Shown: positions 30,118 to 38,345 of the stretch, one piece after another
Layout of the letters: every line of letters starts with the position of its first letter
Position numbering within the stretch: position 1 is the first letter of the stretch
The notes under the pieces: generated by a model
Seen by the model: only the letters and a program-made list of their open reading frames with translations
The model's database searches: none
What the model was told of the DNA's origin: nothing
Source of the DNA: Alphaproteobacteria bacterium
GTDB lineage: Bacteria > Pseudomonadota > Alphaproteobacteria > RF32 > CAG-239
Direction of reading: 5' to 3'
Assembly (NCBI GenBank): GCA_017528205.1
Contig: JAFXPE010000042.1
Location: 16,347 to 80,346 of the forward strand
DNA: 64,000 nucleotides
Program-made: the position numbers and the translations under genes

Positions 30118-31104
30118 TTACTTAATTTTGCATTTTCCGGCGCATTTCTGCAACAATACAAAGCACGGACAGAGATGATATTTTTCATACACCCACATGC
30201 ACGGGCAATTCCACTTCAAACCATATAAACACATCGCCGCAATCAGATAGTAAAAATATAAAAATGCCGGCCAGACATATAATCCGAGCAAGCCGAAAAT
30301 CAACAACATTCCCGACTTGGAGCGATAGGAAAAAGCCACTTTTTCCGGCATAAAAGCATAACCGAAATAAAGGTGTAGGAAAGATAAAATTATCACTACC
30401 GATAAACTAATTTTTTGCATCGTCAAAAAATAAAGCAATATGCTTACCAACACTACACGCACCGCTAACGAACAGAATCCCGAAGTCGTTACCGTCAACA
30501 TCCGCACATTTTGCCGATACAACTCATAATCCGGATTTTTCTTTATCAACTGTTTTTCCTCATCACGCGCCCGAATAATCATCAGCGGCAAAAACACCGC
30601 ACAAACCAATCCCAGAGTAATCCAGTTGAACATCATCAAGCTTGCGCCCCAACACCACATTAAAAGCGAGGCATACATCGGATGACGTGCCAAGGCATAT
30701 GCTCCGGTTGTTTGCAGTTGATGTCGGCTTTTTATTTCAATGCCGTCAGACCACAAAAGCCCGATATCAGCTTTGGCTTTAAGGTGCCAAATCAACCCGA
30801 AAATCACCCCAAGCGAGCCGAAAATAAAGAAAACGTATTGCCCTATCGAATCGGTTAGCGGAAACTGACCTATGGATTTGTTCCAAAATATAAACAACAC
30901 CAACACGCACAAAACCATTTCCCGAGTAGAAAAGAAGTGGTTAATCGTCAAATCCGTGGCTTGCGGATGTTTTTGATATTGCCGAAACTTTAACAGTACC
31001 GCTGCCAACAAAATAATACCGGTAATATAAATCAGGCTCATTCCCCAAAGATACAGTTGTGAATTGACAGATTTTTCAGCAATTATTTGCAATTGTTCCC
31101 ACAT
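30118..31104 (-). CDS. isoprenylcysteine methyltransferase (ICMT/PEMT)-like membrane protein with Cys-rich tail
   Basis: The 328-residue membrane protein has about eight hydrophobic helices. Residues ~130-205 carry the ICMT/phospholipid-methyltransferase signature: TTGAYALARHPMYASLLMWCWG (family pattern G-P-Y-x-x-x-R-H-P-M-Y) and, later, ARDEEKQLIKKNPDYELYRQNVRM (E-E...Y-x-x-Y). These enzymes methylate lipids or prenylcysteines using S-adenosylmethionine. The last ~30 residues are Cys-rich (NCPCMWVYEKYHLCPCF, then KCAGKC) and may bind metal, which is unusual for the family. GGAGAAGAATAA supports the start; the gene overlaps the Lgt-like gene by 29 bp. Confidence 0.78.
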   Translation of the reverse strand: MWEQLQIIAEKSVNSQLYLWGMSLIYITGIILLAAVLLKFRQYQKHPQATDLTINHFFSTREMVLCVLVLFIFWNKSIGQFPLTDSIGQYVFFIFGSLGVIFGLIWHLKAKADIGLLWSDGIEIKSRHQLQTTGAYALARHPMYASLLMWCWGASLMMFNWITLGLVCAVFLPLMIIRARDEEKQLIKKNPDYELYRQNVRMLTVTTSGFCSLAVRVVLVSILLYFLTMQKISLSVVIILSFLHLYFGYAFMPEKVAFSYRSKSGMLLIFGLLGLYVWPAFLYFYYLIAAMCLYGLKWNCPCMWVYEKYHLCPCFVLLQKCAGKCKIK

Positions 31105-31726
31105 TTATTCTTCTCCATAAAATACAAGCAAAAATCGGTATAAAAATCAGCGCCGACCATTGATAAACCGTCAAGTTCAACCATATCCGCGGCTCAATAC
31201 GCACAAATTCCGCCGCAAAGCGCATTATAAGATACCCCAGCATATAAAGCGGAAACAATAAATCAATGCGTTTAGTGTGACAGTAAAACCAATACAACGC
31301 TCCGGCGGCCATAAATTGAAACGCACTTTCCGCCAACTGTATAGGTATAATAAAATGCCCGCCGCAACAACCGTTCAAATAGCAACCTATTTTGCCAAAT
31401 CCGATTGCCACCGCTAAAGGTATTATAAATATGCCGCCGTAAGAATTGCCTTGCTGATGTAAAAAATATTTGTAGAGATTTATGGCAATAAAAGCTCCCA
31501 GCAAAGCCCCCATAACACTCTTATTGGCTATAACCAAAGCGGAAGCAAGTCCGTAAGAAAGCAAAATAGGTATTTTGGCTCCGATGATAACTCCCAAAGC
31601 CAATACTATATAAATGTTTGAAGATATACTTGTTTTCGGTTTCGGCATACGAAGCTTTTGCATCACCAAGCCGCCGCACAATATCCCAATCAGCAAGCAT
31701 ATTGTATATTCCGGATTCATAACCAT
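31076..31726 (-). CDS. prolipoprotein diacylglyceryl transferase (Lgt)-like membrane protein
   Basis: This 216-residue protein has ~6-7 hydrophobic helices and resembles Lgt, which moves diacylglyceryl from phosphatidylglycerol to lipoprotein cysteines. The clearest block is IGFGKIGCYLNGCCGGHF, matching the G-R-I-G-x-F-x-N-G motif, followed by IPIQLAESAFQFMAAGALYWF and a late FAAEFVRIEPRIW (E-x-x-R). It is shorter than true Lgt (about 260-290 residues), lacks the N-terminal periplasmic arm, and the motif Arg is Lys. Its place in the radical SAM cassette suggests it handles another lipid substrate. It abuts the upstream 104-residue gene with no gap. Confidence 0.75.
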   Translation of the reverse strand: MVMNPEYTICLLIGILCGGLVMQKLRMPKPKTSISSNIYIVLALGVIIGAKIPILLSYGLASALVIANKSVMGALLGAFIAINLYKYFLHQQGNSYGGIFIIPLAVAIGFGKIGCYLNGCCGGHFIIPIQLAESAFQFMAAGALYWFYCHTKRIDLLFPLYMLGYLIMRFAAEFVRIEPRIWLNLTVYQWSALIFIPIFACILWRRINVGTIANNC

Positions 31727-32041
31727 CTATCCGAAAAACAGCAAACAGGTGGCAATCGCCAAAATTACCAATGCGGCCTTTGCGCCGTAATTGCGGGTTG
31801 TTCTAAAAAAAACAAAGAAAACCAGCAAAGTCAAAATACCAACCAAAATTGACATAGGTGTAGCACTACTGCTTCCCCAACCGATTGCACCGGTAAAACA
31901 CGCTCCGAAAAGCAACATCGGTGCTAACAGCATAGTGATGATAAAGCCGAGAATTTGCCTGACAATAAACCAACCGTCGATTTTTTTTACCATACTGTTT
32001 CCCGTATTGTTAAATTCATCTTTTTTGATTTCTTCTACCAC
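31727..32041 (-). CDS. small membrane protein of unknown function
   Basis: A 104-residue protein with two to three hydrophobic segments (VRQILGFIITMLLAPMLLFGACFTGAIGW, then MSILVGILTLLVFFVFF and AALVILAIATCLLFFG) after a charged N-terminus. I recognise no family. It begins with GTG inside the last codons of the radical SAM gene (AAGGAAAAATATC before GTG), an overlap of 7 bp, and ends flush with the Lgt-like start. Such close packing indicates co-translation and a role with its neighbours, perhaps as a membrane anchor or lipid-handling subunit. Confidence 0.75.
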   Translation of the reverse strand: MVEEIKKDEFNNTGNSMVKKIDGWFIVRQILGFIITMLLAPMLLFGACFTGAIGWGSSSATPMSILVGILTLLVFFVFFRTTRNYGAKAALVILAIATCLLFFG

Positions 32042-33354
32042 GATATTTTTCCTTTCAAGGCATTATGCACACAAAACGGCACCACTTTGCCGTTGCCGAC
32101 CGCTACACCGGTACAGCATTTTCGCGCGCGTTCCCAATCAAAATTGTCGATATCCATAAAGTTTTTTACCACAATACGAATAATTTTCATATCCTTATGG
32201 CAAGAGCCATCGCCGTTGGCAAAATCTTTCAATTTTCGCAAAATTTCCGTACTGCCGAAAATTCGGCCCACAAAGCAATCGCAGACATTGTGGCGCATGT
32301 ATTCCAAAATGGTTTTATCAAACGCAATCCGGTTGGAAATTTGCTGTTTACATTTGGTAAAATCAATATAATCGCCCAACGAATAAACCTTATCACCTTG
32401 GCAAAACAAAAAGCCCAAACTTGTACAATTCTCATGCGAACAAGGTAGAGGAATAATATCCTGATAACGCATATAGCCGCTTTGAGCCATCGCCAGCAGT
32501 ATGTCTTCCTGCATAACGGTTGGGACCTGAGAATCAAGCGCACTCCCTACTTTGGTTAAACGCTGAAAAGTTATGCCGGAAATATGCTTGGTGCGAATCG
32601 CCAATTCCATAATTTGAGGAATCTGCGTCAGATTATTTTGATATACCGTTACCGCCAGACACATTTTGATTTCGGCGGCATTTAACTTGGCGATAATTGC
32701 TTCTTTTTCGGCCAACAATTTACGACCGCGCAGGGTTTGGTAAACCTTGTCATCAAAGCCGTCAAACTGCAAATAAACTTCTATGCGGTCGCGGTGTCCT
32801 TTGAGATATTGAAAAATACGCTCGTCAGTCAGCAAATTTAAACCGTTGGTATTGATTAAAATGCGCCCGATATTGTAACACAGCGCAATATCCAACATAG
32901 CCAGCAAATTCGGATGCAGCAAACATTCACCGCCGGAAATTTGCAACACGTCCAATTTTTGATTTTCCACCGTCAGCAAAGTAGCAAGACGATTTTTAAA
33001 TTCGTCGACCGAAATATGTTGCGACGACTTCTGCCCAAAATAACAAATCGGGCAAGCCATATTGCAACTTTCGGTAATTTCTATTAAGCCGGTGCATATA
33101 TGTTGGCGATGCTTATTACACCAACCGCAGTCGGCACCGCAATTGCCGTTATACGTACAAACCGGTGTAAATTCTTTGCCTTTAACATCAAAAGTTTTAT
33201 CAAAAAAGCGCTTGGCATCTTTGGCAATTTGAGTAACAAAATGCCCGTGTTGCGGACAATCTTTATACAAAAACACGTCTTTTCCGACTTTTTCTTTATA
33301 TGCCGGAACAGTTTGCAAACATATCGGACAGATAGCTTCGGTTTTTGTTTTCAT
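32035..33354 (-). CDS. radical SAM protein of the MJ0619/tetraether-synthase (Tes)-like family
   Basis: The 439-residue protein has the radical SAM cluster motif ESCNMACPICYFG (C-x3-C-x2-C) at ~95-107. It is preceded by an N-terminal Cys-rich module (CPICLQTVPAY, DCPQHGHF, CTYNGNCGADCGWC) and followed by a second Cys-rich region (PCSHENC, FCQGDK, KCKQQ, CDCF, CHKD, CCTG). That plan matches the MJ0619 family, whose archaeal member Tes joins lipid chains by C-C bond formation using auxiliary iron-sulfur sites. Bacterial relatives are uncharacterised. Here it is the first gene of a four-gene cassette with small membrane, Lgt-like and ICMT-like proteins. AAGAG upstream supports the start. Substrate is inferred to be a membrane lipid. 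Confidence 0.82.
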   Translation of the reverse strand: MKTKTEAICPICLQTVPAYKEKVGKDVFLYKDCPQHGHFVTQIAKDAKRFFDKTFDVKGKEFTPVCTYNGNCGADCGWCNKHRQHICTGLIEITESCNMACPICYFGQKSSQHISVDEFKNRLATLLTVENQKLDVLQISGGECLLHPNLLAMLDIALCYNIGRILINTNGLNLLTDERIFQYLKGHRDRIEVYLQFDGFDDKVYQTLRGRKLLAEKEAIIAKLNAAEIKMCLAVTVYQNNLTQIPQIMELAIRTKHISGITFQRLTKVGSALDSQVPTVMQEDILLAMAQSGYMRYQDIIPLPCSHENCTSLGFLFCQGDKVYSLGDYIDFTKCKQQISNRIAFDKTILEYMRHNVCDCFVGRIFGSTEILRKLKDFANGDGSCHKDMKIIRIVVKNFMDIDNFDWERARKCCTGVAVGNGKVVPFCVHNALKGKISW

Positions 33355-33429
33355 CAGCTCTTTTAATAAAATAGTAATCTGCTCTTAGGAATACCATACT
33401 ATATTAAAATCGGCTTAAAATTATACCCA

Positions 33430-33438
33430 TTATCCACA
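33430..33438 (+). promoter_or_regulatory. perfect DnaA box between the radical SAM gene and dnaB
   Basis: TTATCCACA is an exact match to the consensus DnaA box. It lies in the 168-bp divergent intergenic region, 85 bp before the dnaB start. A single site fits transcriptional control by DnaA rather than an origin. Confidence 0.6.
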
Positions 33439-33522
33439 GCAAAAAAAATATTTCACTACACAAAAAATGCGGATTATTTATAACTGACTGCAATACTTAA
33501 TCTCTATGAACGAAGGCGAAAA

Positions 33523-34995
33523 ATGGAAAAACCGGATATTGCGAAATTACCGAAAAATATTGAGGCGGAACAAGCTCTTATCGGAGCACTGTTGGCCAAT
33601 AATAAGTTTTATGAAAAAATTGCCGACATTTTGAAACCCGAGCATTTTGCCGATTCTACCCACCGCAAAATTTTTGAGGCGATAAGTAAGCTTTTGCAAA
33701 AAGAACGCACCGCCGATGTCATTACTCTCAAAAACTATTTTGAGCAGGAAGGAACGCTTGAACAAGTCGGCGGTTTTCCGTATTTGGTTAAACTGGAAGA
33801 AAGCGCCTCGCCGCTGACTAACGTTGAGCATTATGCGCAATTTATTTATGACCGTTATCTGCGGCGCGAGCTTATCAATACCGGCTACGAAATCATCAAC
33901 AGCGCAATGGAAGAGAATCTCGATGTTTCAGCCACCGAGCAAATCAGTCAAGCCGAGCGCTCGTTATACAACTTGTCCGATATGGGCGATGCTCAGGGCG
34001 GATTTATTGACTTTGAAAAAGCACTGACTTCTTCTATTTCGGTTATTCAAAAAGCTTATCAAAAAGGCGGACGTATTTCCGGTGTGCCGACCGGCTTAAA
34101 TCAGCTTGATTATAAAATCGGTGGTTTGAACGACTCGGATTTGATTATTCTCGCCGGCCGTCCGGCCATGGGAAAAACCGCGTTGGCCACCAATATTGCC
34201 TACAATGTGGCAGATTTTTTCTCGCGCGATAAAAATACTCCGGCGGATAAACGCGGCGTGGCTTTCTTTTCGCTCGAAATGTCGGCCGATGAATTGGCGG
34301 CGCGTATTTTATCCAGCACCATTCAAATTTCCAGCCATAAAATGCGGGTGGGTGATTTGGACGAAGCCGAATTTATGCGAATCGCCGGTGCGGCGCGCGA
34401 ATTGGCCAACATTCCGCTGTATATCGACGATACGCCGGGCGTCAGCATCAACGCCATTCGCTCGCGGGCACGGCGTTTGAAACGCACCAAAGGCTTAGGC
34501 CTGATTGTGATTGACTATATTCAACTTATCGGCGGTACCGGCGATAAAAAGAGCGAGGGCAACCGTGTGCAAGAAGTTTCGGAAATTTCCCGCGGCTTGA
34601 AAATTCTGGCCAAAGAGCTGAAAATTCCGGTTATTGCCCTGTCGCAACTTAACCGCAGCGTCGAGTCGCGTGAAGATAAACAACCGCAAATGTCCGACTT
34701 GCGCGAATCCGGTTCCATCGAGCAAGATGCCGATATCGTAATGTTCGTGTTCCGCGAAAACTACTACATTCACAATTCGGAGCCGAAACGCGGTGAAAAC
34801 GAATCGGAAGAGGCCTTTAACAAAAAACATGCCGAATGGGAAATTCGCGACCGCAACACCGCGCATCAGGCTGAGGTGATTATCGGCAAACAACGCCACG
34901 GTCCGACCGGTTCGGTTAAACTCGGTTGGGACGGCGAATACACCCTGTTCCGCAATTTTGCCGAAGACGAAAGGTTGCCGGAACAACATGGATAA
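33523..34995 (+). CDS. dnaB: replicative DNA helicase
   Basis: DnaB is the hexameric helicase at the replication fork. The 490-residue protein has the N-terminal domain (KNIEAEQALIGALLANNKFYEKIADIL), linker helix and RecA-like core with Walker A in LAGRPAMGKTALATNIA, FFSLEMSADELAARILS, Walker B LIVIDYIQLI, and SQLNRSVESREDKQPQMSDLRESGSIEQDADIVMFVFRE. An acidic insertion (EPKRGENESEEAFNKKHAEW) is present near the C-terminus. A start with AAGGCGAAAA upstream is clear. Its stop overlaps the next gene's start by 8 bp. Confidence 0.96.
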   Translation: MEKPDIAKLPKNIEAEQALIGALLANNKFYEKIADILKPEHFADSTHRKIFEAISKLLQKERTADVITLKNYFEQEGTLEQVGGFPYLVKLEESASPLTNVEHYAQFIYDRYLRRELINTGYEIINSAMEENLDVSATEQISQAERSLYNLSDMGDAQGGFIDFEKALTSSISVIQKAYQKGGRISGVPTGLNQLDYKIGGLNDSDLIILAGRPAMGKTALATNIAYNVADFFSRDKNTPADKRGVAFFSLEMSADELAARILSSTIQISSHKMRVGDLDEAEFMRIAGAARELANIPLYIDDTPGVSINAIRSRARRLKRTKGLGLIVIDYIQLIGGTGDKKSEGNRVQEVSEISRGLKILAKELKIPVIALSQLNRSVESREDKQPQMSDLRESGSIEQDADIVMFVFRENYYIHNSEPKRGENESEEAFNKKHAEWEIRDRNTAHQAEVIIGKQRHGPTGSVKLGWDGEYTLFRNFAEDERLPEQHG

Positions 34996-35374
34996 AAAAG
35001 ATTGGCAAAAAATTTTGGATGAAAAATGGGAAGCAATTTGCGATAATTGCGGCAAGTGTTGTTTGATGACGCTGGAAGATGAAGAAACCGGCGAAATGTA
35101 TCATACCGATATTTTGTGCCGCTACTACGATTTGGAAAATAGCCGTTGTACGGTTTATGAAAAGCGTTGCGAAATTGTGCCGAATTGCCTGAAATTAACG
35201 CCGGAAAACGTCGACAAGTTGCCGTTTATGCCCAAAACCTGTGCTTATCGTCGGCTTTTTGAGGCCGGTTTTAAGCCGCAACCGCTGAAACCGATAAAAG
35301 GACGGGTGGTGAGCGAAACCGAAGTGAAGTTTGCCGATTTGGAAGACCACATTGTGGATTGGGATGATTTATGA
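34988..35374 (+). CDS. YkgJ/YcgN-type cysteine-cluster protein, copy 1
   Basis: The start at 34988 (GGAAC upstream) gives 128 residues. The family signature is ICDNCGKCC near residue 20, then ILCRYYDLENSRCTVYEKR, VPNCLKL and PKTCAYRRL: eight conserved cysteines that in YkgJ/YcgN proteins are proposed to bind a zinc or iron-sulfur cluster. Function is unknown in any organism. It overlaps dnaB upstream and the GIY-YIG gene downstream by 4 bp (ATGA). A divergent paralogue lies at 35811. Confidence 0.88.
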   Translation: MDKKDWQKILDEKWEAICDNCGKCCLMTLEDEETGEMYHTDILCRYYDLENSRCTVYEKRCEIVPNCLKLTPENVDKLPFMPKTCAYRRLFEAGFKPQPLKPIKGRVVSETEVKFADLEDHIVDWDDL

Positions 35375-35661
35375 TTAAACAACCTTGTGTTTACATTTTA
35401 GCCAGTCAAAAGAACGGTACTTTATACATAGGAGTAACTTCCGACTTATTAAAGCGTGTGTACAAGCATAAAAATGATATGCAGGGTACTTTTACGAAGA
35501 AATATAATGTAAAAATGCTCGTTTATTACGAAATGTATGATGATATGGCGGAAGCAATTAAACGCGAAAAAGTATTAAAAGGATGGCGCAGAGAGCGAAA
35601 AATTGCGCTGATTGAGAAAAATAACAGAGAATGGATTGACTTGTATGACAGTTTGTTTTGA
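35371..35661 (+). CDS. GIY-YIG nuclease family protein, copy 1
   Basis: A 96-residue single-domain protein: PCVYILASQKNGTLYIGVTSDLLKRVYKHKND contains the GIY-YIG pair as VYI...LYIG, with the catalytic Arg in LLKRV and EAIKREKVLKGWRRERKI downstream, where the Glu and Lys/Arg complete the site. It is of the UPF0213/YhbQ-like size. It overlaps the upstream YcgN-like gene by four bases. A palindromic GTCATTCTGAG element starts 25 bp after its stop. Homologue at 37937-38227. Confidence 0.88.
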   Translation: MIKQPCVYILASQKNGTLYIGVTSDLLKRVYKHKNDMQGTFTKKYNVKMLVYYEMYDDMAEAIKREKVLKGWRRERKIALIEKNNREWIDLYDSLF

Positions 35662-35686: not shown

Positions 35687-35794
35687 GTCATTCTGAGCAA
35701 ATGCGAAGAATCCATTTCGTCCTTAAAGACGAAACAACGCCACGGGCGTTGCTGGATCCTTCACAACGGCACTGACGTGCCTGTTCAGGATGAC
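35687..35794. repeat. GTCATTCTGAG-type palindromic element, copy C
   Basis: A 108-bp element with ends GTCATTCTGAG and TTCAGGATGAC. The interior has AAGAATCC and its partner GGATCCTT, plus two short hairpins (TTCGTC/GACGAA near 35717-35732 and CAACGCC/GGCGTTG near 35735-35751). It lies between a GIY-YIG gene and the second YcgN-like gene and ends 16 bp before the latter's start codon. No flanking direct repeat is seen. Confidence 0.72.
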
Positions 35795-35810
35795 GCTAGC
35801 GGAGAAAAAC

Positions 35811-36317
35811 ATGAGTAATGATGATTACATAATAAACGAATCGTATGATCCGCAAGCACGAGTCGATGAATTTCAAAAGCTGGAACCGGAATTTTGGAAG
35901 CGCAAAAAGCTGGAAGAAATGAACAAAGACGAGTGGGAAGCTCTTTGCGACGGTTGCGGCAAGTGCTGTTTGAACAAAATCGAAATCAAAGGAAAAATCA
36001 GATTTACCAACGCCCATTGCCGATTTTTGGACTGTCAAAGCTGTTTGTGCAAAATATACGAACACCGCTTTGAAGTGGTTGACGATTGCCGCGACATTGA
36101 CTTAAACGCCGTGCGCGAAAAACCGCGTTGGTTGCCGAAAACCTGCGCCTATTGGCTTTTGGATAACGGTTACGATTTGCCTGCGTGGCATCCTCTGATT
36201 ACCGGCAAAGCCGCCAGCGTGGTAGAATCCGGAAATTCCTTATCCGGCCGAGAATTGATAAACGAAACAAAGGTTGATGACTATGAAAATTACATTGTTG
36301 ACTGGCAAGACCTTTGA
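35811..36317 (+). CDS. YkgJ/YcgN-type cysteine-cluster protein, copy 2
   Basis: Beginning at the ATG at 35811 (GCGGAG upstream), the 168-residue protein has the same Cys signature as copy 1: LCDGCGKCC, HCRFLDCQSCLCKIYEHR, VVDDCRDI and PKTCAYWLL, and ends in the same NYIVDWQDL. It differs by an extra ~35-residue charged N-terminus and a C-terminal insertion (SVVESGNSLSGRELINET). This one more closely resembles full-length YcgN (UPF0260). It overlaps the downstream metallopeptidase by 35 bp. The two copies probably arose by duplication, with the GIY-YIG gene and element C now between them. Confidence 0.85.
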   Translation: MSNDDYIINESYDPQARVDEFQKLEPEFWKRKKLEEMNKDEWEALCDGCGKCCLNKIEIKGKIRFTNAHCRFLDCQSCLCKIYEHRFEVVDDCRDIDLNAVREKPRWLPKTCAYWLLDNGYDLPAWHPLITGKAASVVESGNSLSGRELINETKVDDYENYIVDWQDL

Positions 36318-37916: not shown

Positions 37917-38345
37917 CTCAAGATGACATTGATATATTATTTTGTGATAGAATCGTATAAATCATTCCAGTTCGGATTAAATCTGCATATCAAATCTATC
38001 TTTTTTATTTTTCTAAAAAGTTTAAGCTGCTTTTCTCTTGAAATGGCAGATATTTCATCTTCATAAATTTCGAAATAAACCAGTTTATGTACTTTATATT
38101 TTGAAGAAAAACCTTCTATGATGTCATTTTTGTGTTCCCACACTCTTCGTATGAGATTGTTTGTTACTCCGACATACAGCGTAGTATTATTTTCATTTGC
38201 CATTATGTATACGTACATCGTTTTCATATCCGAATAATAGAACAATAATAACGTCAGGTCAATGAAACAAATTACACAATTTTATTAAATTTTTGCGTCA
38301 TTTTTCGGTTTTATAAAAAAACAATATATCTTATGTCATCTTGAG
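37917..38345. repeat. 13-bp inverted repeats framing the second GIY-YIG gene
   Basis: CTCAAGATGACAT at 37917-37929 and its exact reverse complement ATGTCATCTTGAG at 38333-38345 enclose the second GIY-YIG gene (37937-38227). Both are variants of the GTCATTCTGAG ends seen elsewhere, pointing outward from the gene. A diverged partner end for the left copy may exist near 37808-37850 (AAGAATCTG, CGAATCTTC), so part of this is a decayed palindromic element. Confidence 0.65.
37937..38227 (-). CDS. GIY-YIG nuclease family protein, copy 2
   Basis: The 96-residue protein (ATG at 38227; a TTG at 38245 is less likely) shows MYVYIMANENNTTLYVGVTNNLIRRVWEHKNDIIEGFSSKYKVHKLVYFE with VYI and YVG as the GIY-YIG pair, the catalytic Arg in LIRRV, and AISREKQLKLFRKIKKIDLI. 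It is homologous but clearly diverged from copy 1. It stands alone in the accessory zone, with a GTCATCTTGAG-type end 7 bp beyond its stop and another on its 5' side. Confidence 0.88.
   Translation of the reverse strand: MKTMYVYIMANENNTTLYVGVTNNLIRRVWEHKNDIIEGFSSKYKVHKLVYFEIYEDEISAISREKQLKLFRKIKKIDLICRFNPNWNDLYDSITK

Follow-up and report, generated by a model that had tools for sequence, protein, structure and literature searches.

What does a cassette made up of genes for a Tes-like radical S-adenosylmethionine (SAM) protein, a small membrane protein, an Lgt-like protein and an ICMT-like protein do in an alphaproteobacterium? The question is raised by a stretch of 64,000 nucleotides from an Alphaproteobacteria bacterium of the CAG-239 lineage (assembly GCA_017528205.1, contig JAFXPE010000042.1, positions 16,347 to 80,346), hereafter the window, in which four such genes follow one another. 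Our main finding is that small membrane proteins with a single Cys, of the kind encoded by the second gene, track an Lgt-like neighbour across genomes. The likeliest function of the cassette is a form of Cys lipidation. We give about an even chance (roughly 0.5) to a pathway in which the four genes together lipidate the Cys of the small membrane protein, the radical SAM enzyme altering the lipid chains before or after attachment. The features concerned, in window positions, are the following.

32035-33354, minus strand: gene 1, Tes-like radical SAM protein, 439 amino acids (open reading frame (ORF) list, Pfam, NCBIfam, alignments to Tes)
31727-32041, minus strand: gene 2, small membrane protein and candidate substrate, 104 amino acids, with a GTG start overlapping the radical SAM stop (ORF list, position matrix)
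31898-31900, minus strand: codon of Cys48 of the gene 2 protein, candidate lipidation site (motif LLFGAC, matrix score 15.8)
31076-31726, minus strand: gene 3, Lgt-like integral membrane protein, 216 amino acids (Pfam LGT, fold, active-site alignment)
31358-31396, minus strand: signature region GKIGCYLNGCCGG of the gene 3 protein, residues 111-123 (alignment)
30118-31104, minus strand: gene 4, ICMT/PEMT-like membrane methyltransferase, 328 amino acids, with RHPMY and EE motifs (Pfam, NCBIfam, alignment)
30163-30207, minus strand: Cys tail CPC-x9-CPC of the gene 4 protein, residues 300-314 (alignment)

The overlap is 7 bases between genes 1 and 2 and 29 bases between genes 3 and 4; genes 2 and 3 abut. 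This agrees with a preliminary description of the DNA, which had reported four overlapping minus-strand genes at coordinates that we confirm. Its motifs can likewise all be seen, namely CX3CX2C with flanking Cys-rich modules in gene 1, IGCYLNGCC and Lys112 for the Lgt Arg in gene 3, and the Cys tail of gene 4. The families it named were recovered by Pfam, with Radical_SAM and Zn_ribbon_HMPTM in gene 1, LGT in gene 3, and ICMT and PEMT in gene 4; gene 2 has no Pfam family above its cut-off. The conserved neighbours it expected in other genomes also exist: of 80 loci, 61 have an Lgt-like gene on the same strand at a distance of up to 5 kb, and 18 an ICMT-like gene. The cassette is not a chance arrangement, because the set recurs in other phyla.

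Small single-Cys membrane proteins track an Lgt-like neighbour

In the gene 2 protein, Cys48 stands in LLFGAC, where the first hydrophobic stretch ends, and an Arg precedes it by 20 residues. Related loci hold small ORFs, often in tandem, that either separate the radical SAM and Lgt-like genes or flank them. Their products diverge widely between phyla, and none of the ten sampled reached a Pfam cut-off; what they have in common is a single Cys where a hydrophobic helix ends. The motifs around it include FGTC, MTC and VGTC, as well as FFLTCLG and others in Planctomycetota, SGGC and PSGAC pairs in other Alphaproteobacteria, GLGICGG in Bacteroidota and VGVCTGLNP on a Mycobacterium plasmid. Since the nearest charge upstream of the Cys is Lys or Arg in 54 of 59 small proteins, the Cys is predicted by the positive-inside rule to lie on the outer side of the membrane.

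The Cys pattern was seen in a first set of 80 loci (set 1), where it occurs in 49 of 71 adjacent small membrane ORFs versus 4 of 84 distant ones. Set 2 comprised 17 of 18 Bacteroidota places (the one in genome G419 was already in set 1) and six of ten plasmid hits. For set 3, 36 of 49 Planctomycetota places were taken: set 1 had already included the G418 locus, five fell in regions already covered and seven weak ones were left out. L205 was dropped from set 3 as a near-copy, and L263-L272 were left out of the analysis. A position matrix was trained on 59 windows of set 1, and the greedy choice of ORFs was omitted when it was tested. The area under the curve was 0.77 in set 2 (p 1.4e-6) and 0.81 in set 3 (p 1.1e-4). 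With the threshold at score 0, 17 of 35 ORFs next to an Lgt-linked set were positive in set 2 and 11 of 15 in set 3, as were 5 of 97 and 3 of 59 distant ORFs, respectively. By locus, 13 of 18 (set 2) and 10 of 17 (set 3) with an Lgt neighbour were positive, as were 0 of 5 and 0 of 18 without one (combined Fisher p 1.5e-7, which, like the other p values, overstates independence because the loci are related). In the window itself, gene 2 scores 15.8; the highest score among the 88 other small membrane ORFs is 2.1.

Several points weigh against the reading of the small protein as an Lgt-linked acceptor. Strict detectors of a Cys after a helix, preset on set 1, gave p 0.19 and 0.16 on held-out set 2. 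A relaxed detector, devised after viewing set 2, gave p 0.0007 there and p 0.64 on set 3, where choosing the longest ORF left only six adjacent ORFs with Lgt. The design of the matrix followed these failures and a by-eye reading of set 2 and set 3 proteins, so that both sets were held out in training but were not blind. No such small protein is seen in 12 of the 35 held-out loci with Lgt, and the positive call of L165 depends on an apparent ordinary lipoprotein, the sole positive of that locus. Most held-out loci without Lgt carry more distant radical SAM proteins (at least 400 bits in 2 of 5 in set 2 and 6 of 18 in set 3). This, the relatedness of the loci, the timing of the matrix design and the L165 call all weaken the p values. 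Small Cys proteins also occur despite the lack of an Lgt neighbour in three loci with room for one (L019, L030 and L072) among the 19 such loci of set 1.

The three enzymes

The gene 3 protein exceeds the Pfam cut-off for LGT (66.7 bits versus 24.9), and its predicted fold is also that of Lgt. It keeps Y165, R169, E173 and R176, which correspond to Y235, R239, E243 and R246 of the Escherichia coli enzyme, and the first two have equivalents in all 22 aligned cassette Lgt-like proteins. The places of E. coli His103, Arg143 and Asn146 are taken by Met72, Lys112 and Cys115. Among the 22 proteins, the Arg143 place holds Arg in 13, Lys in 8 and Ser in 1, and the Asn146 place Cys in 20 and Asn in 2. 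Gene 3 was rejected as the housekeeping Lgt because the window genome, with at least two Lgt matches, carries a normal Lgt besides it; at least two matches were found in every one of the nine bacterial genomes among 11 genomes tested.

In the gene 1 protein, the radical SAM motif C97-x3-C101-x2-C104 has Cys-rich modules on either side. These are a zinc ribbon (C9, C12, C33, H36), an N-terminal cluster (C72, C76, C79, plus H82, H85 and C87) and a C-terminal cluster (C413, C414, C428), the cluster roles being assigned by alignment to Tes; C305 and C310 are further Cys. The predicted fold is that of full-length Tes, including the ribbon and two auxiliary cluster domains, and among the structural matches that come next are SuiB and SkfB, radical SAM enzymes that modify peptides. 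The NCBIfam cut-off for Tes was not reached (160.6 bits versus 450); the best NCBIfam match, over the full length, was TrsS at 237.3 bits, below its cut-off of 490. Two alignments place K397 at the position of Tes Met439, where Lys is invariant in the close set (19/19) and where 102 relatives have Thr in 56, Lys in 24 and Met in 14. The likeness to MJ0619/Tes drawn in the preliminary description thus stands for fold and ligands; membership in Tes does not, given the score and the Lys for the labile Met439.

A tree of 102 of the 104 radical SAM proteins (L022 and L025 were too short), built by a quick method, with long branches and no true Tes included, required 16 changes when labelled by Lgt neighbour versus 21 when shuffled, so that loci with the neighbour are clustered and do not form one clade. 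A plain role in methanopterin metabolism, as the name HMPTM would have it, was rejected because the fold and the Lgt partner speak for lipids; the ten recurrent neighbour families scanned include none for pterins. Some relatives stand beside a methyltransferase gene and have no Lgt neighbour, namely L137 and L138 on haloarchaeal plasmids and L135 on a plasmid of Mycobacterium vanbaalenii. The methyltransferases of L135 and L137 are DVU_1556-like (136 and 132 bits; cut-off 155). L137 and L138 also adjoin DUF547 and peroxiredoxin-type genes, and L135 adjoins CcdA and disulfide oxidoreductase genes; these may be Trs-type redox systems, and may bear on the Tes homologues of Halobacteria that lack glycerol dialkyl glycerol tetraethers (GDGTs).

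The gene 4 protein reaches the Pfam cut-off for ICMT (41.4 versus 24) and stays below the NCBIfam cut-off for isoprenylcysteine methyltransferase (69 bits versus 160). Its close family has an ICMT core plus a C-terminal region, which in 8 of the 12 proteins aligned (gene 4 of the window among them) ends in CPC-x9-CPC. Prenylated protein partners of ICMT are a eukaryotic theme.

Distribution and genomic site

Homologues numbered 294, of which 120 were listed; 80 genome loci, out of a larger number, were kept for the neighbour counts. The closest 19 loci among the matches listed (42-77% identical, the nearest relative being the one at 77%) come from Alphaproteobacteria, Elusimicrobia, Kiritimatiellae and other bacteria, and clustering assigns 13 of the 18 ICMT-bearing loci to them. 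At E 1e-40 or better, and with already known genomes included, a close profile matched 6 of 385 Alphaproteobacteria genomes and 9 of 198 from Elusimicrobiota, and a wider profile 18 of 198 from Bacteroidota and 36 of 199 from Planctomycetota. Phages gave no match, viral contigs 28 weak ones, and plasmids ten matching records, six of which were examined. In Planctomycetota, Tes-like radical SAM paralogues neighbour each other with no Lgt neighbour at G861:C132, G966:C15, G882:C299 and G940:C218.

Several loci without Lgt end near the radical SAM gene. For the seven that have room, a cassette-type Lgt is encoded elsewhere in four bacterial genomes and just past the 5-kb limit in L050; no cassette-type Lgt was found in the two archaeal genomes. 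The cassette-type Lgts of those five genomes score 225-281 bits, versus 47-109 for their other Lgt matches, and one detached Lgt (L276) adjoins its own small GTC protein. A cultured carrier, Mangrovibacterium marinum (L069), combines a small GTC protein with radical SAM, ICMT-like and Lgt-like ones. The ten recurrent neighbour families scanned (representatives of F5-F12, F14 and F17; F13 was left out) are mostly ordinary, such as a kinase, a sulfatase, RuvB and oxidoreductases. A lipid-type enzyme, the major facilitator superfamily (MFS)/acyltransferase/AMP-binding fusion F6 (for example L009, 11273-14707), is found in the vicinity of the set in 6 of 80 loci, of which 4 are close ones, and an oligopeptide-type ATP-binding cassette ATPase in 5 of 80. 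Permease-like proteins (F16) adjoin the radical SAM gene in L029, L041, L051 and L054; those of L029 and L051, from Chloroflexota and Bacillota relatives, weakly resemble the SaoE and SO_0444 efflux families (57-65 bits for SaoE, cut-off 325).

The cassette is not a genus trait, as no full-length match exists in 25 other genomes of the same genus; two of them (G016, G020) have weak partial matches over the radical SAM core. DnaB is present in 22 of 23 genus genomes, its own included. Among the 21 others with DnaB, galE directly adjoins dnaB, without the cassette, in 16, terC is the next gene in 2, and the view is cut or different in 3. This adjacency in relatives makes the cassette a separable unit between dnaB and galE. 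It is absent from the same site in most close relatives and present in related form in several distant bacterial phyla, and it was probably gained horizontally. The cassette begins 168 bases from dnaB (window 33355-33522) and the dnaB-galE gap in relative L243 is 165 bases, a spacing as if the cassette had taken over the galE promoter, galE now being downstream. Two related Cys-rich proteins, about 35% alike, are encoded downstream of dnaB (window 34958-35374 and 35790-36317), and genus relatives repeatedly have matches to both next to dnaB. The ORF between them (35371-35661) is presumably a GIY-YIG-like nuclease; we take it and the nearby ORF at 37937-38245, on the opposite strand, to be two small proteins of this type.

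Proposed function, alternatives and known systems

The preliminary description had proposed that the cassette modifies membrane lipids, perhaps yielding chain-linked or head-group-modified ones, and had given the small membrane protein no role. A role in lipids stands by family. A free membrane lipid as product, though conceivable, is not supported. The single conserved Cys and its tracking of the Lgt-like neighbour point to a protein acceptor. Cys placement, this association and the changed active site of the Lgt-like protein together suggest a dedicated lipid donor or acceptor. In the proposed pathway, the Lgt-like enzyme would join a lipid to Cys48, and the Tes-like enzyme would alter the lipid chains or the conjugate, before or after that step. 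The ICMT-like enzyme might methylate the lipid head group or the product, and the small protein would escape cleavage and remain in the membrane in lipidated form. The gene association is the demonstrated part of this mechanism; the rest is proposal.

To the objections raised above, the proteins themselves add several. No His stands at the His103 place in any of the 22 cassette Lgt-like proteins, and the window clade has Lys at the Arg143 place; according to excerpts of PMC4728403, H103 of E. coli Lgt is essential and its proposed base, and R143K is inactive. Charge is more positive before the Cys than after it in 33 of 59 small proteins and the reverse in 15, so that it is not one-sided, and in 27 Lys or Arg is also the closest charge on the downstream side. 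Thr is the commonest residue before the Cys (23 of 59), unlike in the classic lipobox. Finally, Cys of the C-terminal cluster are partly lost in many of the radical SAM relatives (C413, 62 of 102; C428, 69 of 102), and with Met kept at the Met439 place in 14 of 102, a single chemistry need not hold for all of them.

It is conceivable that the radical SAM enzyme couples the acyl chains of phospholipids as Tes does, with the Lgt-like and ICMT-like enzymes changing head groups and the small protein an accessory. The Tes fold and shared metal ligands, the F6 fusion near the set, the ICMT/PEMT membership of gene 4 and the proposal of bacterial Tes homologues as makers of branched GDGTs (brGDGTs), made in parts of PMC8941075 and PMC11868695, all speak for such a free-lipid pathway. 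We nevertheless consider it unlikely, as it leaves the recurrent helix-end single-Cys proteins that track Lgt unexplained, and as gene 1 has Lys for the labile Met439 and a score below the Tes cut-off. Alternatively, the small protein could itself be cross-linked or otherwise changed by the radical SAM enzyme, like a ribosomally synthesized and post-translationally modified peptide, with the other two enzymes acting later or in export. Small hydrophobic products beside the enzyme, often in tandem, and the structural matches to SuiB and SkfB fit this peptide maturation, which we hold to be distinctly unlikely. A very unlikely alternative is that metal binding or electron transfer is the task of the Cys-rich Lgt motif, the CPC tail and the small-protein Cys, in metal or thiol handling as related Trs-type systems may do. 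Cys-rich motifs in genes 3 and 4 and the efflux-like proteins beside Chloroflexota and Bacillota relatives would fit; however, the small protein has one conserved Cys and no ligand set, the lipid-site R239 and Y235 are kept in 22 of 22 Lgt-like proteins, and efflux-like genes are present at 4 of the 80 loci.

A bolder form of the lipidation reading, which we regard as tentative and somewhat unlikely, places it outside the Lgt-LspA-Lnt route. A Tes-fold enzyme and a His-less Lgt paralogue would make a chain-coupled or remodelled Cys anchor on an uncleaved small protein; the resulting proteolipid would span the membrane or be doubly anchored, and such a system, in at least seven bacterial phyla, could explain many of the bacterial Tes homologues proposed as brGDGT makers. 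Branched GDGTs are lipids that serve as temperature proxies. In the parts of PMC8941075 and PMC11868695 drawn on here, the proposal comes without a biochemical test; the former lists 456 bacterial Tes homologues, and the latter Tes homologues in 110 of 684 Planctomycetota metagenome-assembled genomes. Of the held-out Tes-like proteins that reach at least 400 bits with our own profile, an Lgt-like neighbour accompanies 15 of 17 in set 2 and 16 of 22 in the Planctomycetota set; a small single-Cys membrane protein is encoded at many of these loci. This suggests a protein-linked lipid at such loci, whose proteins may differ from those counted in the two papers. Were this so, Tes-type chemistry would be put to a new use, and the small lipidated proteins would form a new family. 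Some bacterial genes proposed to make membrane-spanning lipids could therefore do something else. A search of open-licence papers found none in which a small membrane protein is linked with a radical SAM protein and an Lgt paralogue.

How does the cassette compare with known systems? With Tes (MJ0619, PDB 7tol/7tom), gene 1 shares the predicted full-length fold, the ribbon C9, C12, C33 and H36 at identical numbers, the N-terminal cluster Cys, the radical SAM motif, and the CC and C of the C-terminal cluster. It differs in K397 for Met439, in the extra C87 and C305, in its score (161 bits versus 450), and in being bacterial and beside Lgt-like and small membrane genes. The TrsS radical SAM (seleno)protein is its top NCBIfam match, full length at 237 bits, yet gene 1 falls below that cut-off. 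Gene 3 has the fold of E. coli Lgt (5azb) and equivalents of Y235, R239, E243, R246 and G154, but it is shorter, lacks His103, and has Lys for Arg143 and Cys for Asn146 and Glu151. Gene 4 has the core of ICMT (protein-S-isoprenylcysteine O-methyltransferase) with RHPMY and EE, but also an extra membrane part and the CPC-x9-CPC tail, and it scores 69 bits against a cut-off of 160. Among the ten neighbour families scanned, other neighbours lying outside that scan, there was no signal peptidase II. In the window, F-G-A-C departs from the lipobox [LV][ASTVI][GAS]C, with Phe at -3 and Gly at -2. Like a bacterial lipoprotein signal peptide, the small proteins have a positive charge, a hydrophobic helix and then a Cys; unlike it, they have Thr as the commonest residue before the Cys, often have helices on both sides, and often carry the Cys near the C-terminus.

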